From Halichondria panicea (lineage: Eukaryota; Porifera; Demospongiae; Suberitida; Halichondriidae): DNA of 64,000 bases. Below the pieces are notes generated by a model that had not been told where the DNA came from, did no database searches, and saw only the letters and a list, made by a program, of their open reading frames with translations. The translations under genes were made by a program, and so were the position numbers. Positions 15,595-46,625 of the stretch are shown one piece after another. The DNA is taken from contig NC_087391.1 of assembly GCF_963675165.1 (NCBI RefSeq), positions 3,832,646 to 3,896,645 on the forward strand, written 5' to 3'. The stretch's first letter is position 1. The number at the start of each line of letters is the position of its first letter.

Positions 15595-18456
15595 ATGTAT
15601 GCTAGTACAAATTATTGTCTTCTATCGGTGTGCTTTTATCTGTTTGCCAATGGTAAGTTGTATTGATGCTCACAATAATTGCATTCATTGTTATTTTGTT
15701 GTGGTGTAGCTGCTTCTCAGCGTATTGAAATACAGCCAGTCGATCATCTGGATATTTTGCCTGGAACAGACGTTGTGTTTTCAGTAACTGTAGCTGATGG
15801 AGTTGGTTCTCTTGACTATTACTGGCTTAAAGATGGCGAAGTGCTTACTCATTCTCCTAAATATAGTGGAATAGACACCGGCACAATAACTGTTTTGAGT
15901 GCTAATGAGGAAGACGAAGGCTTTTATGTGTGTGTAGCTGTGTTTGAGCAAACAAATTTTTTTTCCAATCCAGCCTCACTCACTGTTCGTAAGTTGAAAG
16001 AAGTGGTATAATGATTACTACAGCTATATACATAATGAAGATTTCCTTTAAATGCTGTGTAATTTTCGTGTATGCACAGTGGATGTACCTGTACTCAATT
16101 CTCAGCCGGCAGACCAGATCAATGTTCCGCAGGGCAGAAATGCTGTTTTTGGTGTAGTGATTTCCGGTCAGTTCCTCAAGTACCAATGGAATAAAGATGG
16201 AGTTAACATTGTTGACACACCAGGCACCTATTCTGGTACAAACACGGCTACACTTACTGTGACTGCTGGCGAAGAAGGGGAATATAGCGTTTTAGTCACT
16301 AATCCAGCTGCACCATATGGGATCTCTTCCAACAGTGCTTCACTAATAACCTGTAAATAGCTATGTTTTTACACACTCATACTCATACTAATTTTCTGTG
16401 CAGTGTACCCTCCAGTTATTGCACAACAACCTATGGATCTGGGAGCTGCATTGGGTGACACTGCACACTTTTCGGTAGTGGTAGTTGGAAGTGGTATTTC
16501 GTACCAATGGCTGGTTATTTCTCCCCTTGGAGATGGAAGTGCTCTCACTAATACTGCCACCATGCTTTATACGAATACAGACACCTTAATTCTAATCGGT
16601 GTTACTGCAAATGATGAAGGAAAAACATTCTACGTTCGTGCCAGTAATGCTGCAGGAGATGTGCTGTCTACTACAGCAGTACTTACTATTGGTGAGTGGT
16701 GTTAGTTAAATGTGCATGAATGTGCTTTTCATGCATTTTTCCAATTTAGTACATCTTCCTGTAATCTACATCCACCCACAACTTTCGACACATCATGCTT
16801 CCTTTTCGGTTGTTGCTGCTGGTCAAAACTTGAGTTATCAATGGCTGAAAGGCAGTTATGCACTCAATGATACTTCAAAATTTTCAGGAGCTACAACAGC
16901 TACGCTGACAATACTCAGTCCTGTTTCTCCAGATGATGACGGATTCTACAGTGTAATGATTTCAAATGCTGCTGGTTCTATGACATCCAGCCAAAGCCTT
17001 CTAACTGTTTGTAAGCTAGACATACATTCTGTTGTTGGTTGTAACTATATAATTATGTTGTGCCTGAAGGACTGAGCATGCATGATTCCAGTGTTTTCCC
17101 CGTTCAGCAAATGAGCAAAACCTCACTATCCCTGTTATCGTGACTCACCCAGTGAATGTTGAAGCTCCTGTCAGGGGAACAGCTACATTTTCAGTTGTTT
17201 CTGTTGGAGATAGCTCTATACAGTGGTTTCAAATTCCAAATACGCCTCTTATGAATTCGGCAACCTTCAGTGGTACACAGACCATGTCATTGACCATTAG
17301 TAGTGTTACTCACACAATGGATAGGGATATGTATTATGTGAGAGTTAATGATTCAGCTGGAACTGCTGTATCAAGCACAGTTTCTCTAAATGTCGGTGAG
17401 TATATCACTCATTAGAAGCGGCAGGTTTGTAGTCTCCATAATTATAATAACTAACTCTCAGATGATTATTCTGTACTATAATTACACTCCCTTATACAGT
17501 TGACCCTCCTGTTGTCAGTATTCATCCATCCAACATGTTGAACCAGTACTCTGGAGCGCTTGCTTCTTTCAGTGTGGTGGCTACTGGACATGGACTGACC
17601 TATCGGTGGCAAAAGGATGGAGTTGTGCTTAGCGATACAGACAAATACACTGGAACCACCACCCCCACTATTAGAGTTACTGATATTGTCTTTCCAGTTG
17701 ACTCCGGCTTCTATAGTTTGGTTATTACCAATGTTGCTGGTGCTGTTGTATCCAATGCAGCTTCGCTCACCATTGGTAAGTCCACACCACCTGTATATTC
17801 CGATCCATTATTGTGCCTGCATGGAGGTGTCAGGTATACAGCCTTATTATGTGTGGGAAATTTTCTTGTAATTATTCTTAATTGACTAACAGCGGAAATG
17901 TAGGGAATTTGAAAATTCATCTATTCACCATACATTTTCAATTTCCTTCAGTTGCTAGGAATGACAGGAAAACAATACCTCATACGGCTACCATGCAGTA
18001 TTTAATGAACACCTTAATAGTGATATAGCAAGGGGTTATCAACTGCACTATATAGACATGCATAGTGTGGTTACTTAGCGATATAAATCGCTCTTACCAA
18101 GTTCTCATATGCTACTGCATAGTGCTAACAATTATATCATTCACAAGACATAATTTGTTCATATGCATGCATGCACACTCAAATAGTTGCCATTGTGAAG
18201 GACCCTGAGAGTATAATTGTCGCTGGTGGAGAGAATGCCACACTTACTGTGGCAACAATTGGGGACTCCCTCATTTACCAGTGGCGAAAGGATGGAGTAG
18301 ACATTACCGACACACCTGGTGCTTACTTGGGAGCAAGCACACCCACTTTGGTGGTGCTTAGCACTGATGATGATGATGAAGGCTTGTACCAGGTGACAGT
18401 GACAAGCATGGGCAAACAAGATGGTATTATTTCTACATCTGCATCATTGACTGTTC
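15595..18456 (+). CDS. Adhesion GPCR: signal peptide and Ig-like domains 1-7
   Basis: Exons 15595-15652 (signal peptide), 15710-15988, 16080-16352, 16404-16691, 16750-17010, 17108-17395, 17500-17775 and 18187-18456. Each later exon is one phase 1-1 Ig-like domain of 87-96 residues. The pattern is F-S-V-V near strand B, Y-x-W (often KDG after it) on strand C, and D-x-G-x-Y-x-V on strand F. The cysteine pair usual for Ig domains is absent: strand B carries V or S, and strand F reads FYSV, FYVR or LYQV; only Ig1 keeps a strand F cysteine. The fold assignment rests on the W, the DxGxY motif and length. Confidence 0.85.
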
Positions 18457-21400
18457 GTAAGTGCTTTTTAATGTGTTTGTATGCATGATGGTTCAAAAAT
18501 TCTCTTTGCAGTTACGTGCCCTGTATTACCTCTTCCTATGAACGGTGGCATTACATTTAACATGAGTTCTCTTCCAAGTGGTGGTTACCCACTAGGAAGT
18601 ACTGTGACATACAATTGTATCAGAGGCCAGATATTTGAAGGTGATATGATAAGAGTGTGTCAGTATGATGGGACGTGGAGTGGAGTAGGACCCAGCTGCA
18701 CTGGTGAGAATCAAGTACCTTAAGGAGATGATAAACAGAAATATTGATGCAAACATTTTGATAACTGTAAAAAGATGCGCATAGTGTTGTTAAACCATAT
18801 TCACTCTTTTCCATGCAGAATATTGTCCTGGTCTGACTCTAACAGATGGAAATGTTACATACTCTATTGGTACTAAAGAAGGCAACCTACAGCCTGGTGC
18901 TGTAGCCACTCACCAGTGTGAACTTGGCTTTGACTTGTCTGGTGGGACCAACAGGACCTGTTTTAATGTGGAAACGTCTGGACAAGGAGTGTGGACTGGG
19001 ACCAACCTAATATGTGAACGTGAGTTACTTTTTTGAATGAAATTTCCCCAACAATTTTATATATTAATGCATTTTCTAGCTAGGTTTTTAACTTTTCAAT
19101 CAAGGTTCCGATTGTGGGTAGAATTAGTTATGTACAAATCACATGCATGGCTTTATGGATACTTTATACTGAAACTTGTTGAAATTGGCCACCATGGTAA
19201 CAGAATGACAACTGTCTTACTGAAGTATTCTTTCCTTTGTGTCAGATTACAGAAATTAGGTTTATATAGGCTTCTGTAGTTGGTGTTGCTATGACTCAAT
19301 GGTGCACACATATTTCATACTGAAACTTGTTGAAATTGGCCACCATGGTAACAGAATGACAACTGTCTTACTAAAGTATTCTTTCCTTTGCTTCAGATTA
19401 CAGAAATTAGGTTTATATAGGCTTCTGTAGTTGGTGTTGCTATGACTCAATGGTGCACACATTGCTTGTTATAAGGGCTGCTATTAGCTAGGGGTATATT
19501 TTGTCTTCCACTTAAAAATTTGCAACCATTGAATTTTACTGGAAGGTCAGTCATATAGGAGAGTATAGTATAGCACAAACCGATATAGTACACTCAGCAA
19601 CAGAAATTGCATATAGCATGATTTAGTATTAGTTTTTGGACCAAGTTTAGTCAACGTGAGGGAGTGTATAGTGATGTGCAGAAGCCATGCACTACCGGTA
19701 ATCACTCCCGAGAGTTTACTGTTATCTAGCTTGCTACTGAAACTATGTCAACAAACTCATTAATTAGTTCAACGCGGGAAGCAGTACTATACACATGCTA
19801 TCTGGCTTATTTATTCTACCGTGTGAGTTAGTGACCTACTGGCACGTTTTTTGGATAAAAAACTCTTGACATCAAATTGAATGAATAATAGTTAGTTAGT
19901 GACCTGCTGGCACGTTTTTGGATAGAAAATTCTTGACATCAAAGGTTGAAAGAATAATTACCTGAGGTACGAAGGCGACTACGGGTTATAATAGTCTGTT
20001 GTTGTCTGTTTTGAGTCTGCTCACCTGGCTATCATAGCACTACGTTTACAGTTTACAGCACGGATATAGCTTCAACACCACAGCCATTTTCAAAGCCTTG
20101 TCATAGCGTTCAAATCTGATTTTTCTCTGTTTCATTGCCCTCTGTAGTTGCTGATAGGTTTCCATATTCATACATATAGCTACTAGATTTTCTTCTACTG
20201 ATTCCCAGTACAACACTTATGGTTGTGAGACGTTATAACGGCCGAGGATTTAGTAGTTGTTGCTAGTCTCTATCATATAACAATTATAGGTACATTTTAT
20301 ACTACAATGTCTCTGTTATTGTACGTATCACAGCATTTTAACACTTTTAATTTTTTCAGGTGTAAGGTGCAATCCTCTACTTCTTGAAAATGGATTTATC
20401 GACTATAGCTCAGATGTAGAACTTGGTAGTGGGTCTGGTTTTTTTGCTGAGCAAAATGATGGATATAATTTTGGCACTGCTGCCACTCTCACCTGCAATA
20501 CTGGGTTCTCTTTGACTGGCGGTGATGCTGCGAGAACCTGTGATAATGGTATAGGAGTAGAGGGAGAGTGGAGCGGAGAGCAGCCTGATTGTCAAGGTGA
20601 GTTTTGCTTGTCAGTAATTTAACAAGAACATTTATGTAAAATCACCTTTTTAATGCAATGATTTTCACAATTCAGACATTACCTGTGGGTTTATTATTCT
20701 GGAAAATGGGATCATCTCGTTCGATTCAAACTCAGACTTCCCTTTCAGTTTTGGCACTGCGGCCACACATAAATGTGACCCAGGGTTCTCCCTTGTGGGT
20801 ACAGAAATGAGAACATGTGATGGGAATGGGTCTAGTACATCTGGAATGTGGAATGGAGAGGCACCGATTTGTCAATGTAAGTACTGTATTGTTTTATTGT
20901 TTACGATGAATTCATTTGCATTCCACAGCTATTATGTGTCCTGCTCTGCTCCTTGCTAATGGCAATGTGGAGTATGATGGTGGAAGTCGTGTATACTCTG
21001 GGGACAGTGAGGGAGGAAGTCATGTATACTCTGGGGACAGTGAGGGAAAAGATGTCGGCTCTGGAGATGGTATTCAATACGGTATCAATGCCACTCTCAC
21101 TTGCAATGAGGGCTTCATTATGTTGGGTGACGTGACTAGAGTTTGTGAAGGAAGTGGTTCTACAGGAGTATGGAGTGGCTCTTCTACGATGTGCTCAGGT
21201 TTGTAATGTAAGTAATGTTACCGCCTTTATTTATTTTGCTTCAGCTGTTATGTGTCCATCGCTAACTGCTCCCAGTAATGGATCTATTTCTTATGCTGAG
21301 GACATGACAGCTGACTTTGAGTTCATGACGACTGTAACATATAGTTGTAACTCAGGCTTTGCACTACTTGAAGGAGATTCTATGAGAGAGTGTTTGGGGA

Positions 21401-24400
21401 AGAACGAGTGGAGTGGAAGTCCGCCTCTTTGTCATGGTTAGAATGAGATACGTATATAATTGTGTGTGTCTGTATTGTGACGGCACCCCTTCAGTTAGTA
21501 TATGTATAATTATAGGACGATGTTTTTCTTCCAGCTGTTACGTGTCCTACACTCGTGGATATATCCAATGGTGTGAACGTGACCTATGACCATGCTCGGT
21601 TGCCCAATGGCAGTCTTACAGTTGGAACAGTAGCCACTTATGGCTGCATGGATGGATTTGCACTACTAAATGGATATACTTCAAGAACATGCACTGGTAA
21701 CGGCACTACTGTCAATGGGGAATTCGATGGACAAGAACCATCATGTGAAGGTGAGAACTGTGAGTCATAATGATTGTATATAACATATGCATCTCTATCT
21801 CTCTGTAGCAATAACCTGCCAGGCATTGCCCGAACCAGCAAGTGGAACTGTGTTCTATGATGACAATAGAGATGACGGCTCGTATGCATTTAATGTTGTG
21901 GCCAGCTATAGTTGTGACATAGGGTTCACTCTGGTGGGTGGGACGACTAGAACTTGTACTGGAGATGGCAGCAGTGTGGTCGGTGCTTTTGATGGACTGG
22001 CTCCAACTTGTGAAGGTGATTAGTAAAAATTTTTGTGGAGCATGTATTTAATATTTTTCACTGGCAACTGTAGCCATCGTTTGCTCTGCTTTGTCAATTC
22101 AAAATGGAGTTATAGAATACAATAGTAGCATACTTTTTAGTGGATTCTTCTTTGGTGAACGAGCCCAGTATGACTTTGGAACTACTGCTATTTATACGTG
22201 CAACACTGGATTTGCTTTGACTGGTGGTGATGTTGTGAGAAGCTGTGGTTGTGGCATTGGAGTCGATGGAGAGTGGAGCGGACAGCAGTTGACATGTCAA
22301 CGTGAGTTACCTTTACTAAGTTTTAATTGCTTCTTTGCCAATTGCTTACCTGTGTGCTTGTAATCTTTCACATTTCAGCGATTGTGTGCAGCTTTTTGTT
22401 CCTAGAGAATGGAGTGATCACATACTCGCCAGACACAGAACAGCTCCCTTACAGTTTTGGCACTGTGGCCACACATCAATGTGACCCAGGATTCTCCCTT
22501 GTTGGTACTGGAAAGAGAACATGTGGTGGGAATGGAACATATACATATGGAATGTGGACTGCGGAGGCACCAATTTGTCAACGTAAATAATTAATGGCAA
22601 TGAATGTGTTTTGTCTTTTGACTACTCTTCTCTCTATTCATAGCCATATTTTGTCCTGCTCTGGTCCTCACTAATGGCTATGTGGATCATGGGGATGGAA
22701 GTGGTGCATACTCTGGGATCAGTGAAGGAAGTGGTGCATACTCTGGGGTCAGTGAAGGAAGTGCTGCCGGCTCTGGAGATGTAATTGAATACGGCACTGT
22801 GGTCACCTACACTTGCAACATTGGTTATGTGTTGACTGGTGGTGATGCTTTGAGAACCTGTAGTGATGAGGGCGAGTGGAGCGGAGGGGAGCCTACCTGT
22901 GATTGTATGTTTGCAAACTAGCATCACGACTAACAAATACTTATCTCTTACACATAGCCGTCCTGTGTGACTCACTGACCCTCAGCAATGGTTCTATCTT
23001 GTACTCACCTGACACTGACTCTCCTTTTGATTTTAACACTGTGGCCATTCCTAGATGTGACAAAGGATTTGCTCTGAATGGAAGTGTTGCAAGGATATGT
23101 GAAGGGGATGGAGTCAACTCTACTGGTATTTGGAGTGGAGAGCCTGCATTTTGTGAACGTGAGTTCTCAGCGATGTTTAACATTGGAGCTACTGCTTTCT
23201 ATACTTTACTTCAACCTTTGCAGCAATTTTTTGTGATCTAGTGACTATTGAGAATGGAGTCATTGAGTACTCAATGAGTAATCTAGCCCCCTTCTTATTT
23301 GGTACCGTGGCTACTTACTCTTGTAATGAAGGATTCTCATTGTTTGGGGTTGTGGAAAGGATTTGTGATGGAGATGGAGCCAATGTATTTGGAGTGTGGA
23401 GTGACATGCCTCCCACTTGCAAACGTATGCAATATAATGTTTTGCCCTGACTGTGTTTACAACTGATTCCCTTCTCAGCCATTACATGTGACCTGCTTTC
23501 CCTGGATAATGGAGTAATCTCATACTCACAACCAGACACAGAGTTCCCTTTGAGATTTGGCACTTCGGCCACACATCAATGTGACCCAGGATTCTCCCTT
23601 GTAGGTTCAAAAATGAGAACATGTGATGGGAATGGGTCTAGTGCATCTGGAATGTGGACTGGGAAAACACCAATTTGTCAACGTAAATTAAATATTTTGT
23701 TGAATTAACTCTTAATTCAACAACTCTCAATTACACTTCAGCGATTGTGTGCAGCTTTCTGTTCCTAGAGAATGGAGTGATCACATACTCGCCAGACACA
23801 GAACAGCTCCCTTACAATTTCGGCACTGTGGCCACACATCAATGTGACCCAGGATTCTCCCTTGTTGGTACTGGAAAAAGAACATGTGGTGGGAATGGAA
23901 CATATACATATGGAATGTGGACTGCGGAGGCACCAATTTGTCAACGTATATAATTAATGGCAATGAATGTATTTTTGTCTTTTGACCACTCTTTTCTCTA
24001 TTCATAGCCATATTTTGTCCTGCTCTGGTCCTCACCAATGGCTATGTGGAACACGGTGATGGAAGTGGTGCATACTCTGGGGTCAGTGAAGGAAGTGGTG
24101 CATACTCTGGGGTCAGTGAAGGAAGTGCTGCCGGCTCTGGAGATGTAATTGAATACGGCACTGTGGTCACCTACACTTGCAACATTGGTTATGTGTTGAC
24201 TGGTGGTGATGCTTTGAGAACCTGTAGTGATGAGGGCGAGTGGAGCGGAGGGGAGCCTACCTGTGATTGTATGTTTGCAAACTAGCATAACGACTAACAA
24301 ATACTTATCTCTTACACATAGCCGTCCTATGTGACTCACTGACCCTCAGCAATGGTTCTATCTTGTACTCACCTGACACTGACTCTCCTTTTGATTTTAA

Positions 24401-27400
24401 CACTGTGGCCATTCCTAGATGTGACAAAGGATTTGCTCTGAATGGAAGTGTTGCAAGGATATGTGAAGGGGATGGAGTCAACTCTACTGGTATTTGGAGT
24501 GGAGAGCCTGCATTTTGTGAACGTGAGTTCTCAGCGATGTTTAACATTGGAGCTACTGCTTTCTATACTTTACTTCAACCTATGCAGCAATTTTTTGTGA
24601 TCTGGTGACTATTGAGAATGGAGTCATTGACTATTCAATGAGTAATCTAGCCCTCTTCTTATTTGGTACCGTGGCTACTTACTCTTGTAATGAAGGATTC
24701 TCATTGTTTGGGGTTGTGGAAAGGATTTGTGATGGAGATGGAGCCAATGCATTTGGAGTGTGGAGTGACATGCCTCCCACTTGCAAACGTATGCGTTATA
24801 ATGTTTGCCCTGACTGTGCTTACAACTGATTCCCTTCTCAGCCATTACATGTGACCTGCTTTCCCTGGATAATGGAGTAATCTCATACTCACAACCAGAC
24901 ACAGAGTTCCCTTTGAGATTTGGCACTTCAGCCACACATCAATGTGACCCAGGATTCTCCCTTGTAGGTTCAAAAATGAGAACATGTGATGGGAATGGGT
25001 CTAGTGCATCTGGAATGTGGACTGGGAAAACACCAATTTGTCAACGTAAATTAAATATTTTGTTGAATTAACTCTTAATTCAACAACTCTCAATTATACT
25101 TCAGCGATTGTGTGCAGCTTTCTGTTCCTAGAGAATGGAGTGATCACATACTCGCCAGACACAGAACAGCTCCCTTACAGTTTCGGCACTGTGGCCACAC
25201 ATCAATGTGACCCAGGATTCTCCCTTGTTGGTACTGGAAAAAGAACATGTGGTGGGAATGGAACATATACATATGGAATGTGGACTGCGGAGGCACCAAT
25301 TTGTCAACGTAAATAATTAATGGCAATGAATGTATTTTTGTCTTTTGACCACTTTTCTCTCTATTCATAGCCATATTTTGTCCTGCTCTGGTCCTTACCA
25401 ATGGCTATGTGGAACATGGTGATGGAAGTGGTGCATACTCTGGGGTCAGTGAAGGAAGCCCTGCCGGCTCTGGAGATGTAATTGAGTACGGCACTGTGGT
25501 CACCTACACTTGCAACATTGGTTATGTGTTGACTGGTGGTGATGCTTTGAGAACCTGTAGTGATGAGGGCGAGTGGAGCGGAGGGGAGCCTACCTGTGAT
25601 TGTATGTTTGCAAACTAGCATCACAACTAACAAATACTTATATATATCTTACACATAGCCGTCCTGTGTGACTCACTGACCCTCAGCAATGGTTCTATCT
25701 TGTACTCACCTGACACTGACTCTCCTTTTGATTTTAACACTGTGGCCATTCCTAGATGTGACAAAGGATTTGCTCTGAATGGAAGTGTTGCAAGGATATG
25801 TGAAGGGGATGGAGTCAGCTCTACTGGTATTTGGAGTGGAGAGCCTGCGTTTTGTGAACGTGAGTTCTCAGCGATGTTTAACATTGAGGCTACTGCTTTT
25901 TATTTTACTTCAATCTTTGCAGCAATTTTTTGTCATCTGGTGACTGTTGAGAATGGAGTTATTGAGTACTCAATGAGTAATCTGGCCCCCTTCTTATTTG
26001 GTACCGTGGCTACTTACTCTTGTAATGAAGGATTCTCATTGTTTGGGGTTGTGGAAAGGATTTGTGATGGAGATGGAGCCAATGTATTTGGAGTGTGGAG
26101 TGACATGCCTCCCACTTGTAAACGTATGCGATATATTTGCCCTGACTGTGTTTACTTACAACTGATTCCCTTCTCAGCCATTACCTGTGATCTGCTTTCC
26201 CTGGATAATGGAGTGATCTCATACTCACCACCAGACACAGAATTCCCTTTGAGATTTGGTACTTTGGCCTCACATGAATGTTTCCCAGGATTCTCCCTTG
26301 TGGGTACAAACATGAGAACATGTGATGGGAATGGGTCTAGTGCATCTGGAATGTGGACTGGGAAGACACCAATTTGTCAACGTAAATTGAATTACCTCTT
26401 AATTCAACAGCTCTCTTAATTCAACAACTCTCAATTCATAGATATAGTATGTCCTGCTCTGCTCCTTGCCAATGGTAACGTGGAGTATGATGTTGGAACT
26501 AGTGGGGACAACGAGATCAGCTCTGGAGATGTGATTGACTATGGAACCAATGCCACTCTCACCTGTAATGATGGCTTCTTCCTGTTGGGTGAAGTGACTA
26601 GACTTTGTGAGGGAAATGACTCTACTGGAGTGTGGAGTGGATCTGCTACAATGTGCTCAGGTATGTATACGTGTAATAATAACCAATTTCTTTGACATTC
26701 ATTAAGGTACTATTTTTATCATCAGTGATCATGTGTGAAAGCCTAAGTGCTCCGCTGAATGGAACCATATCATTCCAAGCTGACACAGCAGCCACATTCA
26801 ACTTCAGAACCATGGCCACGTACGCATGTGACAAAGGTTTTGCCTTGTCTGGTGGAAATCCAGAGAGGACGTGTGAGGAAGGCCCTACTGAGGGGATGGG
26901 AGCGTGGAACGGATCTGCTCCTACCTGTTCTGGTAAGCTGATTTTGTTGCGTTAATGTATATGCCTCAAATCTTTGTCGCTTTTTTTATTTGAATGCATG
27001 CCCTCTTCCACAGAAATACTGTGTAATACACCAAGTGATCCGTTTAACGGCAAAGTAAACTTGAATGTCAAAAATCTCACCATTGGAGCCGTAGTGGCCT
27101 TTTCGTGTGATCCTGGTTACTCTCTTGTGGGCAATGTCAGCATAACTTGTGAGCAAGAGGGTGTCGTTGGAATGTGGAGCAATGATATTCCAACCTGTGA
27201 TGGTAAGAAATGCATCATCAATTTATTGTATGTAATTATTTTGTTTTTCTATAACAGCGATAGAGTGCTCAATGGTGAATACATTGCCCAATGGAACGGT
27301 GATGTACAGTGTTGACACTGTGGCACCCTTTGAGTTTGGTACTGTGGCGACACTTTCTTGCGATAATGGATTCTTTCTTGACGGAGACAATGTAAGGGTG

Positions 27401-36400: not shown

Positions 36401-39400
36401 AAGAAGGCTTCTTCTTGGTGGGAGTGAGCATTAGAGAGTGTGGTGAGGGAAACGGAATAAATGCTGAAGGAGAATGGAGTGATGGTTCCCCCGCCTGCTC
36501 AGGTATGTATAATTTGAAGCAATCTCTCTCACATTCAATATTTTTGTCGTCAGTGATCATGTGCGAAAGCCTAAGTGCTCCACTGAATGGAACCATATCA
36601 TTCGTAGCTGACACAACAGCCACATTCGACTTTAGAACCACGGCCACGTACGCATGTGACAAAGGTTTTGCTTTGTCTGGTGGAAACCCAGAGAGGACAT
36701 GTGAGGAAGGCCCTATTGAGGGGATGGGAGCGTGGAGCGGATCTGCTCTCACCTGTTTTGGTAAGCTGATGTTACTTTAATGTACATGCATCAAATCTTT
36801 GTCGCAGTTATTATGTGTCTTTATTTGAATGCATTCCCCATAATGCCCTATTCCACAGAAATACTTTGCGATACACCAAGCGATCCTTTTAATGGCAAAG
36901 TAAGCTTGAATGTCCAAAATCTCACCGTTGGAGCTGTGGTGGTCTTTTCATGTGATCCTGGTTACTCTCTTTTGGGCAATGTCAGCATAACGTGTGAGCA
37001 GGAGGGGGTCGTTGGAATGTGGAGCAATGATAATCCAACCTGTGATGGTATAAGTTGAATTTTTTTAGATGATTGTGGATTATCTCGTTTGTTTGCAGTT
37101 ACTTGTTCTCCTATTTCTGGTATCGAAAATGGCTGGGTGAGCTACAACTTACTCCGAGAGGTCAATATGGAGTATATCCTTGGAACTCGAGCTTCCTATT
37201 CTTGTGACGATAGAGCTGAGCTATTTGGGGAATCTACAAGAGTGTGTGTTGGTGATGATTTGTGGAGTGGCAACGCTCCTTCATGTCAAAGTATGTTTAA
37301 TTCTCTACCCCTGATATGTTGCATACCGGTAGTGCTTTGGTTCGCATGTGTTATCATTTGTTAATTTCACAGGTGTTTGCTCGAGCCTAGAAGAAGTGTT
37401 GTATAGCAGTGTTACATATTCTTCTGCTCCTAATGCAAATGATAACTATATGATGGAAACAGTTGCCACGTATCTGTGCAGTGAAAATTACGTACTCAAC
37501 GGTGCAATCAGTCGAACATGTGGACCTGATATGCAATGGTCTGGAACTGCTCCTAGTTGTGAATGTGAGTATTACTACATGCACTGTACATTTCTTTCAT
37601 TGATAGTCTTATACTGTCCCTCAGTAATCATGTGTGACGAGTTGGCTCGTCCTTCCAATGGAAATATCACCTTCTCAATGGGTGTCATGCCAAGCTTTGG
37701 TGTAATGACAGTAGCAACATACAACTGTCACACTGGCTATGCTCTCACTGGCGGAAAAAATGTACGAGTGTGTGTGGGGATAAGTGACGCTCAATTGGGT
37801 CAATGGAATGGAAGTGAACCCGTTTGTAAAAGTAAGTATACTTTATACCGCAAAAACGATTTGACTGTATGATGTTTTGCAGTAATAACATGTCGAATGC
37901 TCCCAAGTCCTGGCGCTGGCTCAGTTTTATATTCAAACCTCTCTGAGCCCATAATTTCAGGAACAGTAGCTACATATCAGTGCAATCCAGGATTTTCCTT
38001 AGTTGGAAATGTCAATGCAACTTGCGTTGGTAATGGCCATAATGTTTTTGGTGTTTGGACAAGCAATGAATCATCTTGTGAACGTAAGAATGACCACTTG
38101 GCTTTTGAATTTTTTTATACACTTCTTTTTCTCTATTTGTAGCAATCAAGTGTCCACCATTAAATGCTCCTCTAAATGGAAGTATTCACAATGCTGCAGA
38201 CTTTAGAACCTATTCTAGCTTCGGAACCGAGGCAAGATATTCATGTGATCGTGACTTCAAGCTCAGTGATGAAAGTGCAGTAAGAATTTGCATGATGAGT
38301 AATTCACTCGGTGTGATGGGAGTATGGAGTGGAGTCGAACTTAAATGTGATCGTAAGTTTATCACTCTAAGTCCTTTGTAGTCACTTGTTAATTAAGCTT
38401 ATGACTTTTACTTCTTCCATATGCACTAGCAATACAATGTCAGGAAAGTCTTTCCCTTGTTGATGGCATCATCTCGTATGATCCTGAAAGTCCTCCATAC
38501 GTCATTGGCACCGTTGCCAGATACAATTGCAATGCTGGGTACTTTCTAAACGGAACACTATTGAGGAATTGCACTAACGATGAACCTAACGAGCGTGGTG
38601 TATGGAGTACTAGTGGTCCAGAGCCACTTTGTGAAGGTAAAATCCACACTTACCCCTATATTGTGTCTTATTTTCCGTTCTTTGCAGCTATTGAATGTGA
38701 AGAACTGGTGCTTCCGGCTAATGGTGAAAAAATTATGTACACCAAGGACACCGTGGCTAATTTTGAGATAGGAACCCTTGCCATTTATACCTGTCTCCCT
38801 GGTTACACATTGCTTGGTGATACGAACAGAACTTGTATAGATGATAACCAGGCTGACGGAAAGGGTGTGTGGAATATTACTCACGCAAAATCAGAACCAA
38901 CCTGTAATGGTGAGCTAGCCTTATGTTAATTAATTAGGAGCTGGATTATTTGGACTGATGTAAAACTAAACACAAAAAACCTTGTTTTTACCTGTAGTTG
39001 TTGTACGTATTGTGTGCTGCTTATGATTTAATTATGTGTTCGTTCGCCACTAGAATAACTATTACATTACTTCATACAGAAATCCATTGGAACGACTCGG
39101 TATCGGAAGGTTCTCCTGCTCAAGTTTGCATCAACTTTAATACCTCTGTTGTTCTGTATACCACAACAGACACTGCTACAGGTTAGTTAGTGTACCCTCT
39201 GACTATAGAAGTGATGATGCAGACAATAGACTTGAAAATACAAGTATGTTCTCATTCCTTTTATAGTGGGTGAAGACTTCGAAAACATTTCTACCATAAT
39301 CAATGCGCATTCTCCACCCATGATGGCATGTGTCAGCATCAATACCTCCAAGGACGCCACTTTTGAGCCTACAGAGTATTTCTTTGTGAAGCTAAGGATA

Positions 39401-42400
39401 ATGGATCCCAATATTAGTTTTCAACAGCCACTGATCCGAATCTCAATTCTAAACATAGTAAGCTTATCTTTGCATCATTCAGAAATGTCATTCCATATTG
39501 CACTGCAGGGTGGATTTCCGAATGGTTCCATCTCCACCGTTCTTTTCATGTTATCGGATATTGTGCGGAATATATCACAGTCCTCTGATTCTATCTCTTC
39601 CATTGACAACTCTCTTGCAGAGATCCTTGAAACATTCTCGTCTGAAGGCACTTTTGATAACATTGAAATGGTAAAGTCAAATAAACACATGTCAACAACC
39701 AATTCCTGCATTAAGCATTGCAAATTGGTCCTACCAACGTAATTAATATAGCACATCATTTTTTCCTCCAGACAATAGATGCATTTATCTCAGTTGTGAA
39801 CACTCTTCTTGGTTGGCCATCAGACGTTCACTCTATGACCTCAGCAAGGTTTGTATTATAATAGTCTCTTTACATATGCCATTGTGCGTGATTTGGTTAC
39901 AGCATCATCTCCAAGTTCGAGTCTTTGATTAATTTGATAGTTACAGAAGATATGTTTAAGGAGATCGAACAATTTGACGAGCAGATTTCATTGCGTGCAC
40001 TAAAGGTAATTTTGAACTTGCATGCAATCCAGTTTTAACAGACCTAATATGTAATTGTGTGCAGAAATCTCTGTCAGAGCTTCGCAATAATGGTATAGCA
40101 TTCAACTCACCAGTTTCAACAACTTCTCGAAAGAGACAAGTTTCATCTCAAATACTATTTTCAAGTGTCACATTTCTACCTTCATTCTTCTCTGCCAGCA
40201 GTACTGGAGCAGTTATATTCACACTCTTTAAGACTTCAGTCATGTTTCCCTTGTTGGATGATAAGTTCATGGTTGCTACTCCAATAGTGGGAGCCAGAGA
40301 ACCCACGGAGGGCAGCTGCGACCAAGAGATGTGCATTTCCATCAATTATGAGCTACAAAATGAAGTAAGTGCAATATTTCAATGCATAATTGGGTTATTA
40401 TTATGTTGTTGTTTTCCTCACAGTACTACAATGTAACATGTGTTTCCTGGAAATTTGGTAATTTATATAAGCATAATATAATTGTATTAATAAAAATACT
40501 AACCAAACATTATTATTGTCAACAGATTATGGTGGTTGGAACAGTAGTGGTTGTAGGTTATCGGACTCTTTTACTGAACCTATTCATGGGAGTATTACTT
40601 GCAGCTGTAATCATGCGGGAAACTTCGCAATTCAATATGTGAGTGTACGTGTGTAACCAGTTACGTAATACTCATCATGCTGATTTTTCATTATGTAAAA
40701 TTATAGTGCCCTATTCCACAACGATGTGACCCAAATGCAAACTGTAGCACAGGGGAGGATTGCCCGTGTAATGCAGGATATGGTCGAAACAATGATAGTC
40801 CCTACTGTAAAGGTATAATTACCATGTAGCACTGCATATTTTATGTTATCAGTGCATGCCATGCATTCACTGTATGTAATCTTTCTAGGAATCGTATGCG
40901 AGCCACTTAATGAACAACTAGGCATGAATGGAAATGTATATTACAATAATTCTGATCTTCGTGTGATGACCACTGCGAATATAAGTTGCAAGGACGGCTT
41001 CTCTCTTCAAAATGGTAGCCACACCCGAATATGTGAACAGGACGACCAGACAGACACTACAGGAAAATGGAGTGGGAAAATGCCAACCTGTGAACGTAAG
41101 TCCTGCACTTGGTTTGCACTATATAATATATAGACCATTGAATCTATAAAGTGTAAGCCATTGTTTGATTGTGCATGTGCTTTGTTTGCTAATAAATTTA
41201 TCATCACTCTAGATTTTTTTTTCTCCTGGCCATTTTTATCACACTTACTGTCTCTTCACAATTGTAGCCATACTATGTATGAAGCTTGGTAATCATCCAA
41301 ATGGCAGCGTTACATACGTTGTGGATGATACCCCTGACTATGATCTTGGGACTAATGCCACCTACAACTGTAACTATGGCTACTCACTCAATGGAATGGA
41401 TGCTGTGAGAAAATGTGTTCAGGATGACCAGATAGACACTGTTGGAAACTGGAATGGAATAGTACCACTCTGTCTTGGTAAGACTCCTATATAATAAGTA
41501 GTAAAATCAGAAAGTCACTTATTTCACAGAAATCCTTTGTCCTCCTCTTGATGAGCTTGTCAATGGAAGCATCGTTTATGGAGAAGATGAAATAGCCAAC
41601 TTTGACATTGGAACAACAGCCAAGCATTCTTGTGACTATCGGTACCGTATCGATGGGAGTGTGAACAGAACTTGTGACCAAGACAACCAAGTAGATACAG
41701 TGGGAGTTTGGAGAGGAGACCCTCTCAATTGCAAGCGTATGTTCACAATGCTTTAATTTGCAGTTAGCATGATGATCGTTCTTATATCTTATATCCAGCT
41801 ATACCACCAAATATTGAGATAAATGTAACGGGTATCAGCTTCAACAACTCAGTGGACCCTGGAAGAGCATTCAGTATGTTGTGTTTCTCTGAAGGAGAAT
41901 TCTCTGGTCCTGTCTCATGGAAATGGAACAATGGAATACCTGTACAGAGCATAGGTATATGTAAACAAAATAATTTGTTTAGACATTCTAATGCACACTT
42001 CATATCTACGCACTCTACAGATTATATTGAGCAGCGTTCGATCAGTTTGGGCAGCTTAACTCGCCTCTATCAATCCACCTTCAGTGAGGAGCTAATCAAT
42101 CGTACGACTTATTTTGCTGAGTTGGTGACACTGAAAGATTTTGGTGTGGAACCTGACTCCAGTGGATTGTACACATGCACTGCTAACAATGGTCTCACTA
42201 CTTCAAACAATCACACTTCAATCACTATTAACGGTAAAGAATTAGTGTACTAGAGTATTGTGTCTTACTAATAACTATATACAGCTCCCTCAGTCAAGAT
42301 AGAGAATAAGACTACTTACATCAGGTATGATCTTAACATCAGTTCACTTGAGGCTATTGAGGCGCAAAGAAATCTGACATCCCGAAATGTGACTCTCAAG

Positions 42401-45400
42401 TATTTGAACACAGCGGTGAGGTTGTGTACATTTTCACTTGAGCTAATGATGATTTGCTTTATCAGTTTCTGAGGGGGCTGAAAGAGGACGTTGAAGGCTT
42501 CTACTTAATCGAATCGTTAACAGTTTCAAGGTTTGTTTTCGTACGTGTAAAACTATGATGCCCTGTAAACTCATGCATGCTGTGCAAATCTTGAGCACTG
42601 CAAAAAAGTCTATGCAATCTATATATTGCATTCATTTAGTGACACTGATCTGATAATGGCACGTATGGAGACAAGAGTGAGAAGATTTGGGTTCAAGTTC
42701 ATCCAAGCCTTCAGCATCAACGATTCTCTTGATGCTTTAGAGATGGCCGGTCTCCCTGCTACCAATGTGTCCATGTCCTTCAAACAATCTGGTATGCATG
42801 TGACTGCTATTGCATTAATCATTTAACACTTAAAATGCAGAAATGGGATTCTGCTCAATGGATGTTAATATGTCCATCTTGTATGGAAGATATGTATGGG
42901 AGGAGGTTGAAGTGGGTCAAAATGATTCACACCCTTGTGTGTATGGAAGTCTTAATGGCATGGGAGTGGCGTCCAGAGTATGTCGAGCACCACTTATATG
43001 GGACGATCCTGTGTATGTGCCAGTGGATGAACCGGGTTGCTTCACACGGAATACCAAAAGATTCCAGGAACTTCTGAACTCAAATGTGAGTTAACAACAT
43101 GGCTGATGCAGGTTGTTGCATTTCACTATGTACATTAATTCTACAGCTGACTTTTGAGACTGCTGTTGAGACACTCACCAACCTTAGTGATGTCGTGTCT
43201 CTGTCGACTGCTCCTGAAGACCAGAGCAGTCTGAACTTTGGTGTTATAGTCACTCTGTTTAATATCACTAGCAACATGCTGGACTCCACCACTGGCACAA
43301 AACTAGAAGAAAAAGAAGAAATTGAAGTGAGTTGACAAACATTGCTTTCATGTGACTTGTGACTTCTATACTATAAATGGCAGGTTGTTACACAAGTTCT
43401 TGATGTGGTTGACACTGTCACTAACTGGCCTGAGGAAGTTATTAACGAAGGATCGTCCATGTATGAATTCTTTTTCAGTATGCAAAAATTACTAATTCTT
43501 GTCTTTTTTTAGGGTGGTAGATTCCTTTGAAAGGATTCTGACAAGTTTTGTTGGGCGTGAGAATCTGACAAGCAATATATCCATCACTGGAAATGATACA
43601 GCAATACTTGCACTAAGGGTAAGATAACTATGTCCACAGTCTGCTGTAATTATTTTCTAAGCTAGGCCGAGTCGGAAATGATATCCATCGAAGGATTTAG
43701 TGTGACCACTGGTCAGAACGGAGTAACATGTAAGGCTGCATGCATCTTATTTGGTCATGTTTGCATACGTCTGTCATGACGCCATTATAATTATTCGTTC
43801 ACATGCACATTTGCAGCAATTGTGAACTGTAGTGACGAAATGAGGAATAGAGATGAAGCATGCATAGCGTTGCCTCCATTAGTATTTGAAGACAGTGAGA
43901 AAGATGTTGGACTTGTCTTCACGTACTATAACAGCCCTTCTTTATTCCCCCTTGCTGACAAAAACAACTCTAACAGTTCCACAGTGGTGGGAACAAGCGT
44001 TATTGGAGCTATTGTAGGGGGAGGCAATCACACAGGAAACGTTACCATCATTCTTCCATTTCTTTTGTCGGTAAGGATGTGTTATGTATATTATGTATTA
44101 AGAATATGTGTATTTATACAGTATTATATATTAAGAATATGTGTATTTATACAGCCGGCTGCATACAACCGTTCAACAATTGCTTGTGTCAGCTGGGATT
44201 TCTCTGGAAACGGTATTCAATTTTGGCATATTGAATGCTCTTTTTTACACAATTTTTCTTGCAGGCGGTAGAGGAAACTGGACCACGAAAGGATGCACTG
44301 TTAATAGTGACCTTTGCAGTAACATAGTCAGCTGCACATGCGACCATCTTACTAACTTTGGAGCATTGGTGGTATATTCTTGTTATAATTATATTAGTTG
44401 TGTTATATAGCGACTCAATGAATCGTTACTAACAGTAATTCTATCTTTTAAATTCAGGATTTCTGCCCAAATCCTGGAGGTTGTGAACCACTGCCAATAA
44501 AATTACAACTAGCATTAGACTATTTTTCTTGGATTGGAGCTTCATTGTCTATCATTGGATTGATTCTTACTCTAATAACATTGCTTGGATTTAAGTAAGC
44601 AAAGTTAAATTTCATGCATATTGACATTACTGTCCTCACGAGCAGGAAACTGCGTCAGAGAGATGCTTCCAAGTATCACATCCAGTTGTGTCTTGCAATG
44701 TTGCTATCGCTCATTTTCTTTCTTATTGGAATTGAGGCAAAAATATATACAGGCACCTGTGTTGCCGTAGCAGGACTAGTACAGTACTTCATCCTGGTTT
44801 CATTCATGTGGATGGGTGCTGTTGCATTGCTGATGTTCCAGAAGTTGGTTATTGTGTTTGGGAATATCACAACTAGGTTTATAGTGATCATCTCCTTAAT
44901 TTGTTGGGGTAAGTTTATTTGCAGCTATATATAATTTTGAATTGAGTGTAAACTGCATAATCAGCAGTAATTCAGCACTTGGCTTCCCTTTGTACGTTGC
45001 ATATTCGTTAATGTTGCTCTATCTACGGTACCTGCATACCATATATACATGTAGCGGGGAAATGTTTTTTCACCAGCTATATGGTATTCTCCCTATCATG
45101 CAGGTGCTCCTGCATTACTGGTTATCCCTCTGACAGCAGCAAGCGGAGACCTGATGATTACGGTGACTAATGACATGGATAATTGTACAAAGCAACCTAC
45201 GGAAAACAAAACTATTAGATCGTAAGTCTTTACTGTGATGCTGCATTAGTAAGTGTTAGTGTTAATACCAATAGTCTCTAGCTGGTTACTTTCGAGGTTT
45301 TTGAGGATTGACCCAGAAACACGAAAATTTAATGCCTTGAAAATTGGTTTACATCCGGTATTGAAATGTCTATACTGTAGGGGTGTGATCATTTGAACCT

Positions 45401-46625
45401 CTATCCTTGAAAATAAAATCCTCGAAATGAGCAATCTCAGAAAATTTAGTGCCTCGAAAATAACCCGCTATACGGTGTTTGTGTATTGTATAATTTGTAG
45501 GACGTTGTATTTCTCGTGAGGACCCAAATTCCAAATGACCTTAGCTTGTGCTGGCTTTCTATGTCCTCCATAAACATAGTGCTTTACAATTTGGGCAGTT
45601 TCCAAGTAATCTCAATTGTCTATCTCTTTGCACACAGTTGCTTTACTAGTGACCCAGGGATATTGTACGGAACATTTCTCGGTCCCATACTTGTGGTGAT
45701 TGTCTTCAATTTCGTCATATTTTTCTGCATACTTGCGGTTCTTTCCAATCATATAAAGAAGAAGTATAAACGAGCTGTAAACCCACGAAGATTGGTAATG
45801 AAATTCGTAATCAACATCTTTGGCATTGTGTCCTTGTATGGTTTCACCTGGCTCTCTGCGTTTTTGGTAGCCACACAGGAGAGAACAGCAAACTATACCT
45901 TTCAGGTAATCTTCACCGTACTAAACTCTCTCCAGGGGTTTTTCTTGTTCATCTTCTTCTGCGTTATTAGTAAAGATTCAAGAGATGCTTGGAAAGGAAT
46001 CATTTGTCGAGGAAGACCAAGAAGTAAGTCGACTAACAAGCAAAGTAGCAGTGGTCATACTGATAAAACAGCAAGTACTCTCGCTAGACGCCGCCATGGT
46101 AATACTATGTTATATTCTACTTCTACAATGGAAAGAAGATACACTGGAGCAGACAGCATGATGGGAACATTAGAGAGGAGGCCCAGTACCGGTATACTAG
46201 GCACAAGCTCAGTTGTGAGTACTCTCAACAGAACAGACAAACATTTGAGTAGCATGCCTCCTGCCATTGCTGAAGAGCTTGAACTGAATAATGAATACAT
46301 ATTCGCAAATGAGAATACCGAAATTGAAACTGAATGCTACATAACCGGCCCTACTACAAGTCCTATTATACCCATGGATGCTGAGGAAGGTGGTGCTTCT
46401 GTTTTCGAGAACGTGGAAGCATTGATTAATGATCAAGATGGTCATGGAAGAGAAAGCGGTGAATACATACAAACTGATGGAAAGCTAAATGCTGAGGAAG
46501 GTGGTGCTTCTGTTATCGAGAACGTGGAAGCATTGATTAATGATCAAGATTGTCGTGGGAGAGAAAGCGGTGAATACATACAAACTGATGGAGAGCTAAA
46601 TAGCAATCCATTTGCTCATATTTAG
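15595..46625 (+). CDS. Giant adhesion GPCR (Ig, 73 sushi, Calx-beta, two GAIN/GPS, 7TM)
   Basis: One gene of about 107 exons encoding about 7,193 residues, read in a single frame from the signal peptide to the TAG at 46623. Ig domains take about residues 20-664, sushi 1-70 to 5485, Calx-beta to 5583, first GAIN and degenerate GPS to 5846, EGF-like to 5881, sushi 71-73 to 6089, canonical Ig to 6212, SEA-like and HRM-like regions and second GAIN/GPS to 6692, then seven membrane segments and tail. Blocks are listed separately with exon coordinates. Adhesion GPCRs self-cleave at the GPS and signal through a tethered peptide; long ectodomains bind cells or matrix. The ligand is unknown. Splitting into two genes is unlikely because every junction keeps phase and the only signal peptide and only 7TM region lie at opposite ends. 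Confidence 0.88.
18512..22301 (+). CDS. Adhesion GPCR: sushi domains 1-9
   Basis: Exons 18512-18703, 18819-19019, 20360-20596, 20676-20876, 20929-21198, 21245-21436, 21535-21750, 21809-22015 and 22074-22301, all phase 1-1. Each has the four-cysteine sushi (CCP) pattern: C near the start, NG at about +9, a YxC in the middle, an RxC, then W-(S/N/T)-G and a final C. These nine are diverged from one another, unlike the arrays that follow. Domain 5 carries an inserted Ser-Gly-rich duplication (VYSGDSEG twice). The intron after domain 2 is unusually long (1.3 kb) and holds tandem repeats. The donor after domain 5 (GTTTGT) is weak. Confidence 0.88.
19158..19462 (+). repeat. Two-copy tandem repeat in a receptor intron, about 151-bp unit
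   Basis: The block beginning TACTGAAACTTGTTGAAATT repeats directly at about 19168 and 19319. The copies are almost identical over some 150 bp, including AATGGTGCACACAT at the end. A recent local duplication. Confidence 0.8.
19822..19962 (+). repeat. Two-copy tandem repeat in the same intron, about 70-bp unit
   Basis: The unit containing TTAGTGACCTRCTGGCACG and CTTGACATCAAA occurs twice in a row with small differences. Confidence 0.7.
22379..26381 (+). CDS. Adhesion GPCR: sushi 10-24, a five-domain unit in three tandem copies
   Basis: Unit 1: 22379-22582, 22644-22904, 22958-23158, 23224-23424, 23479-23682. Unit 2: 23742-23945, 24008-24268, 24322-24522, 24588-24788, 24842-25045. Unit 3: 25105-25308, 25371-25601, 25659-25859, 25923-26123, 26178-26381. 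First-exon starts are exactly 1,363 bp apart both times. Exons and introns are nearly identical between units; unit 3 differs most and has one fewer copy of a 30-bp Ser-Gly-rich insert (GAYSGVSEGS) in its second domain. All exons are phase 1-1, so any number of units keeps the frame. Each domain has the full sushi cysteine and tryptophan pattern, so none looks decayed. Confidence 0.9.
26442..26660 (+). CDS. Adhesion GPCR: sushi domain 25 between the two arrays
   Basis: One phase 1-1 exon with a complete sushi pattern (CPALLLANGNVEYD start, ATLTCNDGFF, RLCEG, VWSG, MC end). It most resembles domain 5 and carries a shorter acidic Ser-Gly stretch (TSGDNEISSGD). It separates the five-domain and four-domain arrays. 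Confidence 0.85.
26726..37047 (+). CDS. Adhesion GPCR: sushi 26-63, a four-domain unit in nine and a half copies
   Basis: Domains A-B-C-D (207, 189, 207 and 207 nt, all phase 1-1) repeat. A exons start at 26726, 27814, 28868, 29969, 31069, 32169, 33269, 34368, 35465 and 36554. B: 27014, 28102, 29177, 30277, 31377, 32477, 33577, 34666, 35773, 36859. C: 27258, 28346, 29426, 30526, 31626, 32726, 33817, 34914, 36021. D: 27542, 28604, 29697, 30797, 31897, 32997, 34096, 35192, 36296. Landmarks are MCESLSAPLNGTISF (A), LCDTPSDPFNGKVNLN (B), ECSMVNALPNGTVMYS (C) and VCALLEDPGNGTIVYN (D). Between 29177 and 33577 the period is exactly 1,100 bp, with introns as conserved as exons. Every copy is open and keeps all cysteines. 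Each domain has an NGT or NLT glycosylation sequon. Confidence 0.92.
37099..38909 (+). CDS. Adhesion GPCR: sushi domains 64-70, diverged
   Basis: Exons 37099-37290, 37373-37564, 37625-37831, 37883-38083, 38143-38352, 38430-38636 and 38688-38909. All are phase 1-1 and carry the sushi pattern, but they differ clearly from each other and from the arrays. They look like old, individually maintained modules between the young arrays and the membrane-proximal part. Confidence 0.87.
39080..39457 (+). CDS. Adhesion GPCR: Calx-beta-like domain
   Basis: Two exons, 39080-39181 and 39267-39457, about 98 residues. Calx-beta hallmarks in order are VSEG, a VCI strand, TTTDTATG, the GEDFE turn, and EPTEYFFVKL before a final ISILN strand. 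In other proteins Calx-beta domains bind calcium or carbohydrate and occur in sodium-calcium exchangers, in the adhesion GPCR ADGRV1 and in sponge aggregation factors. The exon boundary at 39457 is one choice: the following 51 nt could be retained in frame. Confidence 0.7.
39509..40638 (+). CDS. Adhesion GPCR: first GAIN-like region with degenerate GPS
   Basis: Exons 39509-39670, 39772-39848, 39903-40005, 40065-40364, 40424-40457 and 40526-40638. The early part is helical-looking, as in GAIN subdomain A, and the later part is beta-rich. It ends in a GPS-like motif: CVSWKFDYGGWNSSGC, then CSCNHAGNFAIQY. The canonical GPS has CxCxHLT before NF; here the cleavage tripeptide reads HAG, so self-cleavage is not expected. 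No membrane segment follows, and the chain continues into an EGF-like module. A basic SRKRQ lies in the fourth exon. Confidence 0.75.
40707..40812 (+). CDS. Adhesion GPCR: EGF-like module
   Basis: One short exon with six cysteines in EGF-like spacing (CPIPQRCDPNANC, then CPCNAGYG and a final YC), as in membrane-proximal EGF modules. It enters in phase 0 and leaves in phase 1, which links the phase-0 GAIN exons to the phase-1 sushi exons. Confidence 0.75.
40889..41736 (+). CDS. Adhesion GPCR: sushi domains 71-73
   Basis: Exons 40889-41095, 41268-41477 and 41530-41736, phase 1-1. They share a D-D-Q-x-D-T-x-G-x-W pattern with domain C of the four-domain array (compare DDQLDTVGVW), which suggests that the C domains came from this proximal group. 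Confidence 0.87.
41799..42233 (+). CDS. Adhesion GPCR: canonical Ig domain 8
   Basis: Exons 41799-41954 and 42021-42233. Unlike Ig 1-7 it has both Ig cysteines (SMLCF and YTCTANNG), the strand C tryptophan (SWKWNNG) and a DSSGLY motif. The domain is split by an intron, again unlike the single-exon distal Ig domains. Confidence 0.85.
42285..44371 (+). CDS. Adhesion GPCR: SEA-like and HRM-like regions, second GAIN and functional GPS
   Basis: Exons 42285-42415, 42466-42530, 42640-42791, 42841-43085, 43147-43326, 43384-43460, 43513-43618, 43666-43729, 43817-44070, 44155-44212 and 44265-44371. The first three encode a SEA-like stretch (weak call). 42841-43085 has the Cys/Trp spacing of a hormone-receptor motif (YVWEEV, HPC, SRVC, LIWDD, GC). 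A GAIN region follows. The GPS reads ACVSWDF, then GNWTTKGC, then SCTCDHLTNFGALV, with the canonical HLT where self-cleavage falls between L and T. The predicted tethered agonist starts TNFGALV. Confidence 0.85.
44458..46625 (+). CDS. Adhesion GPCR: seven-transmembrane region and cytoplasmic tail
   Basis: Exons 44458-44594 (TM1), 44646-44908 (TM2-TM4), 45104-45221 and 45638-46625 (TM5-TM7 and tail). Family B2 landmarks are LRQRDASKYHIQLCLAMLLS in TM2, a conserved extracellular cysteine (YTGTC), WMGAVALLMFQKL in TM3, FGIVSLYGFTWLSAF in TM6 and NSLQGFFLFIFFCV in TM7. The tail of about 220 residues is Ser/Thr-rich and ends with two 37-residue repeats (46380-46490 and 46491-46601; AEEGGASVFENVEALINDQD and AEEGGASVIENVEALINDQD), then SNPFAHI. 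The intron before the last exon holds a MITE. Confidence 0.92.
45270..45475. mobile_element. MITE, TACCRTATAGC family, copy 2 (receptor intron)
   Basis: The right end CGAAAATAACCCGCTATACGG is inverted against the left TGGTTACTTTCGAGG. The core has paired CTTGAAAA and CTCGAAA words. The left boundary is uncertain. Confidence 0.5.

Follow-up and report, generated by a model that had tools for sequence, protein, structure and literature searches.

The window analysed here, a 64,000-nucleotide stretch of Halichondria panicea contig NC_087391.1 (positions 3,832,646 to 3,896,645 of the forward strand), carries on its plus strand a chain of 107 exons (15595-46625) with the domain content of an adhesion G protein-coupled receptor (GPCR). 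The hand-curated, splice-aware model encodes 7,227 residues and has no internal stops. Its coding sequence (21,684 bases including the stop) occupies 70% of the span, and its introns range from 46 to 1,340 bp (median 64 bp), with 90 of the 106 in phase 1. A first-pass annotation of the same DNA had proposed a single adhesion GPCR of about 7,200 residues with 73 sushi domains, which is borne out by the open model, by PF00084 matches in all 73 sushi exons scanned singly, and by scores above the Pfam cut-offs for 7tm_2 and for both GPS motifs; its start at 15595 and stop at 46625 were exactly reproduced. Exons were found by dynamic programming trained on the window and then curated by hand, the N-terminus, one sushi exon, the inner GAIN domain, the exons referred to below as SEA-like and the seven-transmembrane (7TM) region being curated by frame. 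Because GT-AG splice sites were imposed as a condition, both by the gene finder (which also permitted GC donors) and in the hand curation, their presence in the model is no independent evidence for it.

The chain opens with the start codon and a signal peptide (MYASTNYCLLSVCFYLFAN..., exon 1, 15595-15652; hydrophobic peak 2.4, donor score 7.2), followed by seven immunoglobulin (Ig) domains encoded by one exon each, all of phase 1-1 (exons 2-8, 15710-18456; seven stretches of Ig_3, 146.2 bits). The sushi array then begins with sushi 1-2 (18512-19019), which are separated by the longest intron (1,340 bp) from sushi 3-9 (20360-22301). This intron holds two 151-bp tandem copies (19159-19462, 96% matches). 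By DNA identity, sushi 10-24 (22379-26381) form three tandem five-sushi units and sushi 26-63 (26726-37047) nine four-sushi units and a half unit. Between the two blocks lies sushi 25 (26442-26660), which is nearest in sequence to sushi 5, and the diverged sushi 64-70 (37099-38909) close the main array. Downstream are a marginal Calx-beta domain in two exons (39080-39457), the inner GAIN domain in six exons (39509-40638, its GPS in 40424-40638), an EGF-like cysteine module labelled by eye (40707-40812), sushi 71-73 (40889-41736), an eighth Ig domain in two exons (41799-42233), the three hand-curated exons 93-95 that the first-pass annotation called SEA-like (42285-42791), and a cysteine-rich HRM-like module in a single exon (42841-43085). 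The outer, juxtamembrane GAIN domain (43147-44371, its GPS in 44155-44371) leads into exons 104-107, which encode the 7TM region, the cytoplasmic tail and the stop (44458-46625). The tail contains an in-frame 111-bp tandem duplication in two copies (46378-46601).

In the Pfam search that the first-pass annotation had suggested, three unique parts of the protein (664, 801 and 1,012 residues) were scanned besides the single sushi exons. Four cysteines are invariant across the 73-row sushi alignment. The inner and outer GPS scored 33.4 and 44.0 bits (cut-off 22.5), and 7tm_2 scored 112.5 bits over profile positions 3-249 of 250. The Calx-beta assignment is marginal, with 22.4 bits within the 801-residue piece and 27.4 bits, against a cut-off of 27, when scanned alone, and the eighth Ig domain falls under its cut-off (23.0 vs. 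30 bits, E 1.2e-4). The EGF-like module has no Pfam support (best match 11.5 bits, E 0.31), and the SEA-like and HRM-like segments had no Pfam match at E 10, a setting at which the HMMER filters discard most weak matches, nor any in NCBIfam at 0.1. The order that had been proposed (a signal peptide, 7 Ig and 70 sushi, next Calx-beta and GAIN/GPS, then EGF, 3 sushi and an Ig, and finally SEA-like, HRM-like, GAIN/GPS and 7TM) thus stands for the seven N-terminal Ig, sushi, both GPS and the 7TM region and marginally for Calx-beta, while the SEA-, HRM- and EGF-like labels are unsupported by Pfam.

Elsewhere in the window, two similar short reading frames with one hydrophobic segment each by eye lie upstream of the receptor (12704-12799 and 14240-14344). 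Downstream of it are exons of an FMN-dependent dehydrogenase (47221-50244; PF01070, 296 bits), an open frame with a hAT transposase dimerisation region (55196-56083; PF05699, 48.8 bits) and, beyond this frame, a protein-kinase exon (57490-57701; PF00069, 72.9 bits). A dispersed repeat occurs in both orientations at 5005-5640, 7950-8485, 50577-50925 and 52551-53064, and also at several sites in regions of contigs C1 and C8 (the window itself lies on C15).

Two GAIN domains and two-GPS loci in the genome

The outer GPS directly precedes the first transmembrane segment (TM1), which is encoded in the next exon, and ends in CTCDHLTNFGALV, with the triad HL|T that by sequence is the HL|S/T cleavage-site motif. 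Sequence matches in the PDB span the outer GAIN and the 7TM region, the closest being ADGRG2 (E 9e-53) and ADGRG6. The inner GPS ends in CSCNHAGNFAIQY, with the triad HAG: A-G stands where the outer GPS has L-T, so that the nucleophile position is occupied by G rather than by T or S. As the two GAIN regions align nearly end to end (23% identity over nearly the whole length, E 2e-15), the inner one looks like a whole domain and not a stray GPS. In LAT-1, changing the T at position +1 of the GPS to A abolished cleavage, according to the text of PMC3776922 available to us, and from this analogy and the missing nucleophile the inner GAIN is predicted to remain uncut. The inner GPS lies about 860 residues before TM1 and is followed by the EGF-like module, three sushi, an Ig and other modules, with no hydrophobic segment before TM1 (no 19-residue stretch above 1.6 mean hydropathy). 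The same part of PMC3776922 gives it as a general rule that a GPS always lies close to the 7TM region and thus occurs only beside a transmembrane segment; the outer GPS conforms to this generalisation and the inner one does not. The lost nucleophile of the inner GAIN and the recurrence of the two-GPS layout described next are in our view the most unusual observations, and had gone unremarked in the first-pass annotation.

A genome search for GPS gave 68 matches out of 109 candidates. Five loci, namely the window, one on C3, two on C2 and one on C11, have two GPS on the same strand 3.2-4.4 kb apart with a 7tm_2 after the second and, among the 7tm_2 matches listed, none between the pair. We define the two-GPS group by two GPS on one strand, an HRM-like segment between them and a 7tm_2 after the second. 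A query with the SEA-like, HRM-like and following segments returned nine matches, five in the window and one at each of the other two-GPS loci. The four outside matches all lie between the two GPS, on the same strand and upstream of 7tm_2, and cover the HRM-like part alone (E 6e-9 on C3; 0.013, 0.026 and 0.084 at the other three loci), while exons 93-95 had no match outside the window in this genome query. The HRM-like label comes from a cysteine/tryptophan pattern that we take to be typical of HRM, and rests also on this recurrence of the segment at four other loci. The inner triads of the group differ, being HAG in the window, HLT on C3, HLG and HLS at the minus- and plus-strand loci on C2, and HLS on C11, whereas the outer triad is HLT in all five.

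When the central modules were queried together, sushi matches dominated the result (49 of 1,332 candidates scored), and the inner GAIN and the HRM-like module were queried separately. The inner GAIN gave six matches in the window and another 12 in the rest of the genome; the latter fell mostly at the GPS end, and the best of them had an E of 9.8e-4. A C2 pair of GPS (1136165/1141098) was excluded from the two-GPS group owing to a 7tm_2 match between its members. Two pairs on C13 (767259/769055, 1.8 kb apart, and 776872/778974, 2.1 kb apart) are without an HRM-like match and possibly represent another two-GAIN type.

The sushi array and other receptor relatives

The three five-sushi units (1,363, 1,363 and 1,337 bp) share 94.5-96.8% DNA identity, and the nine complete four-sushi units of sushi 26-63 (units of 1,054-1,101 bp) 92.0-99.4%. 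Between copies, exons differ at fewer sites than introns, both in the four-sushi units (4.24% vs. 10.25%) and in the five-sushi units (2.63% vs. 10.42%). The pooled ratio of nonsynonymous to synonymous substitution (dN/dS) was 0.50, 0.19, 0.12 and 0.22 at the positions of the four-sushi unit and 0.10, 0.15, 0.27 and 0.29 at four of the five positions of the five-sushi unit, the fifth being skipped for its differing lengths. Diversifying selection, looked for between the repeat copies, was thus not found at the eight of nine positions computed. Comparison of the units indicates that the array grew by recent duplication of four- and five-sushi units with the protein under constraint. Because the exons are uniformly of phase 1-1, duplication of a unit leaves the frame unharmed, and from such recent tandem duplication length polymorphism between individuals is predicted. 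A DNA search with one four-sushi unit gave two matches elsewhere (the best 74% over 123 bp), and is uninformative since the window's own copies were unlisted.

The first-pass annotation had presented the module order and the number of sushi as without known parallel, and this impression of uniqueness does not survive comparison within the same genome, which contains, besides the four further two-GPS loci, other sushi-bearing receptors and a compact relative. Three 7tm_2 loci on C4 have upstream sushi, numbering 43 (C4:236424-247920), at least 35 (C4:195948-205584) and at least 15 (C4:1552109-1556838). They share with the window gene many sushi followed by 7tm_2 but lack an Ig block by profile. 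A GPS recognised there by eye (triad HFT) is absent from the 68-match list, and the automatic model divides the locus with 43 sushi between two genes. Among the loci examined, the window gene is the richest in sushi; of the 4,112 sushi candidates in the genome, 150 were scored. Dense sushi clusters at C2:6452000-6477000 and C9:5620000-5679000 have no 7tm_2 nearby among the matches listed.

The compact relative (C1:16448292-16457369, minus strand, predicted, about 9 kb) comprises six Ig, two sushi, another Ig, two LDLa-like modules seen by eye, a GAIN, a GPS (HLT, 44.3 bits) and 7TM pieces. It shares with the window gene the Ig block, the first two sushi and the GAIN-GPS-7TM end, and differs in having only two sushi, the LDLa-like pair and, in its model, no inner GAIN. 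Its sushi 1 best matches window sushi 1 (72.4 bits vs. 56.6 for the next) and its sushi 2 window sushi 2 (55.1 vs. 44.7). The nearest relatives of the N-terminal Ig domains lie mainly on C1 at 16.2-16.5 Mb, and two of the four C1 receptors in the 80 kb examined show sushi by profiles. A mosaic receptor at C1:16383844-16392357 has sushi, Ig, GAIN, GPS and 7TM by profiles and Calx-beta-like and LDLa-like modules by eye, and is broken in two at the 7TM region by the automatic model. Two receptors on C15 near 5.44-5.45 Mb have GPS and 7TM only by profiles, with no sushi.

A segment on another chromosome, C8 (1238317-1244270), repeats window positions 44355-53070, comprising the 7TM exons, the tail and the downstream neighbours, with 82.6-98.1% DNA identity in its main pieces. 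Of the GPS exon the copy includes only the last 17 bases, and profiles detected only 7TM pieces in the 70 kb examined there, with no GAIN, GPS, sushi or Ig. By sequence it looks like a headless segmental copy of the receptor. It also carries the 111-bp tail duplication.

One probable gene and the alternatives

The exon chain very probably belongs to one gene spanning 15595-46625. The continuous series proposed in the first-pass annotation is the better reading because in the compact C1 relative an Ig block and the matching first two sushi are linked to GAIN-7TM within about 9 kb. The alternative of two genes, an upstream secreted or surface Ig/sushi protein and a separate downstream adhesion GPCR, divided most probably within the 1,340-bp gap that separates sushi 2 from sushi 3 or at 42234-42840, we consider unlikely. 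It draws on the 1,340-bp gap being by far the longest intron; however, this gap contains no poly(A)-like hexamer. Such hexamers occur in two of the six introns scanned, intron 88 (41191) and intron 106 (45412). No leader-like first exon was found in these six introns, which are those of at least 150 bp among the 106, although the test is a weak one, as 11 candidates turned up in about 31.5 kb of flanking sequence and about one would thus be expected in the 2.6 kb scanned. Between sushi 70 and the second GPS the longest intron of the model measures 172 bp, which leaves little space for a gene end and a new promoter. Several observations weigh against the single receptor, and some of them favour two genes. 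The automatic finder alone depended on its penalty, merging the whole window, giving one gene at 13418-46625 or, under one setting, splitting the chain at 17903/18171 and 42441/42665. The value of 172 bp counts in exons 93-95, for which there is no family support; if they are left out, a gap of 607 bp (42234-42840) remains. The 1,340-bp intron sits exactly where the C1 relative and the window gene diverge. Since most ectodomain exons are of phase 1-1 and can be joined in any combination, continuity of frame cannot prove that the blocks belong together; the splice sites and frame of the model are moreover partly imposed, and its exon chain is drawn from sequence alone. Only two of the seven Ig domains of the C1 relative best match the same-numbered Ig of the window, and of the four HRM-like matches outside the window all but the one on C3 are weak. 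The genome contains no strong relative of the body of the window's inner GAIN, as far as a search with limited sensitivity to diverged relatives can tell, which implies either far-reaching divergence among the inner GAINs or more than one origin for them. That the 7TM end was instead copied from a gene functional on C8, the window gene being a by-product of fusion, is suggested by the identity of the two segments, but seems highly improbable: the C8 copy begins inside the GPS exon with only 7TM pieces around it, and since the edge of this copy falls inside the receptor, C15 is more probably the source.

Two further alternatives concern the array, and both appear improbable. The number of units might be an artefact of assembly, near-identical units having been over- or under-counted. 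Between 28.8 and 33.2 kb, four units share 97.0-99.4% identity, an array of the type to which assemblers are prone; yet none of the nine four-sushi units is identical to another, the young units are surrounded by older ones (92-95%), each has an open frame and splice dinucleotides, and an error of this kind would alter the sushi count and not the architecture. The reading that the first-pass annotation found most interesting was an individually variable self/non-self or microbe receptor, here with its diversity in the sushi array. Tandem units of such recent origin (identity of up to 99.4%) would predict copy-number differences between individuals, and diverse immune-receptor repertoires, including GPS-bearing receptors, are described for sponges in the parts of PMC6208332 and PMC8242945 available to us. 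The latter, a Halichondria paper, shows Sushi, Calx-beta and GAIN as "other domains" in its figure of pattern receptors, the receptor holding them being unspecified in the portion seen. Against such variability, the pooled dN/dS of 0.10-0.50 in eight of nine positions and the lower divergence of exons than of introns speak for constraint between repeat copies and not hypervariability, within the one assembly, which by itself cannot reveal variation between individuals.

Proposed working and comparison with known receptors

We return to a single adhesion GPCR of 7,227 residues encoded by one gene, which we consider, together with the following rod-and-tip working, to be the probable reading. 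The seven N-terminal Ig domains would serve as the tip that binds, kept well away from the cell by a rod of 73 sushi modules, whose extended length we take to be about 0.25-0.3 micrometre from the module sizes we assume. The tip may bind another cell or the matrix, and a pull on the rod could then detach the N-terminal fragment at the outer GAIN and so uncover a tethered agonist that begins TNFGALVDF and would switch on the 7TM region. The inner GAIN, lacking its nucleophile, would stay whole and pass on the force as a structural module, and the rod would have been lengthened recently through duplication of four- and five-sushi blocks. For binding, force and signalling this proposal follows by analogy the adhesion GPCR biology set out in the available part of PMC13197933.

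A more speculative reading, which as a whole we hold to be possible but doubtful, would make the two-GPS loci a distinct class of adhesion GPCR with two GAIN domains stacked along the ectodomain. The relatives with HLS or HLT as inner triad would undergo two cuts, giving three parts that stay together non-covalently, and could release in two steps, with the far part going first and the agonist second. In the window gene the inner cut would have been lost (HAG), so that the stalk of about 0.3 micrometre would stay attached to the outer GAIN and act as one force rod, whose length would vary from individual to individual by steps of four sushi.

If the model is right, its ectodomain departs from the rule, as printed in the available text of PMC3776922, that the GPS is proximal to the 7TM region, and five loci of one genome with the two-GPS layout and differing inner sites would provide a natural series bearing on the purpose of GAIN cleavage. 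The symmetry of the exons, the recent duplication of units and the constraint under which the protein evolves would also represent a very long receptor stalk caught while forming.

Among known systems, the receptor shares with the adhesion GPCRs (family B2) the GAIN/GPS with HL|T, a tethered-agonist-like TNF..., 7tm_2 and a long modular N-terminus, and differs from them in the 73 sushi and the second GAIN inside the ectodomain; by PDB sequence matches alone, ADGRG2 and ADGRG6 are its nearest solved relatives. The sponge aggregation factor, which combines repeated Calx-beta with VWD and wreath domains, is not matched by the window receptor with its one marginal Calx-beta and no VWD among the Pfam hits. 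Nor are complement regulators of the RCA type, which are short, secreted or single-pass chains of sushi only, since Ig, GAIN and 7TM stand in the same window model. ADGRV1 repeats one module, Calx-beta; it resembles the window receptor in being giant, but the latter has one marginal Calx-beta, two GAIN and repeats of sushi. ADGRV1 is named the largest adhesion GPCR in the portion of PMC13197933 available to us.

Adhesion GPCRs of the demosponge Amphimedon have Ig, EGF and HRM modules in common with the window receptor, besides GPS and 7TM (PMC4302439), although the word "sushi" is absent from the available text of that paper, which describes a type with SRCR repeats instead. We found no sushi-rich or two-GAIN adhesion GPCR described in the open-licence literature, judged mostly on titles and the starts of abstracts, and none in the available parts of PMC6208332, PMC4302439, PMC13197933, PMC8242945, PMC12716839, PMC10855680, PMC12909245 and PMC3776922. 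The class of the window receptor is thus a known one, the adhesion GPCRs, of which it would be an unusually large variant with an internal GAIN.

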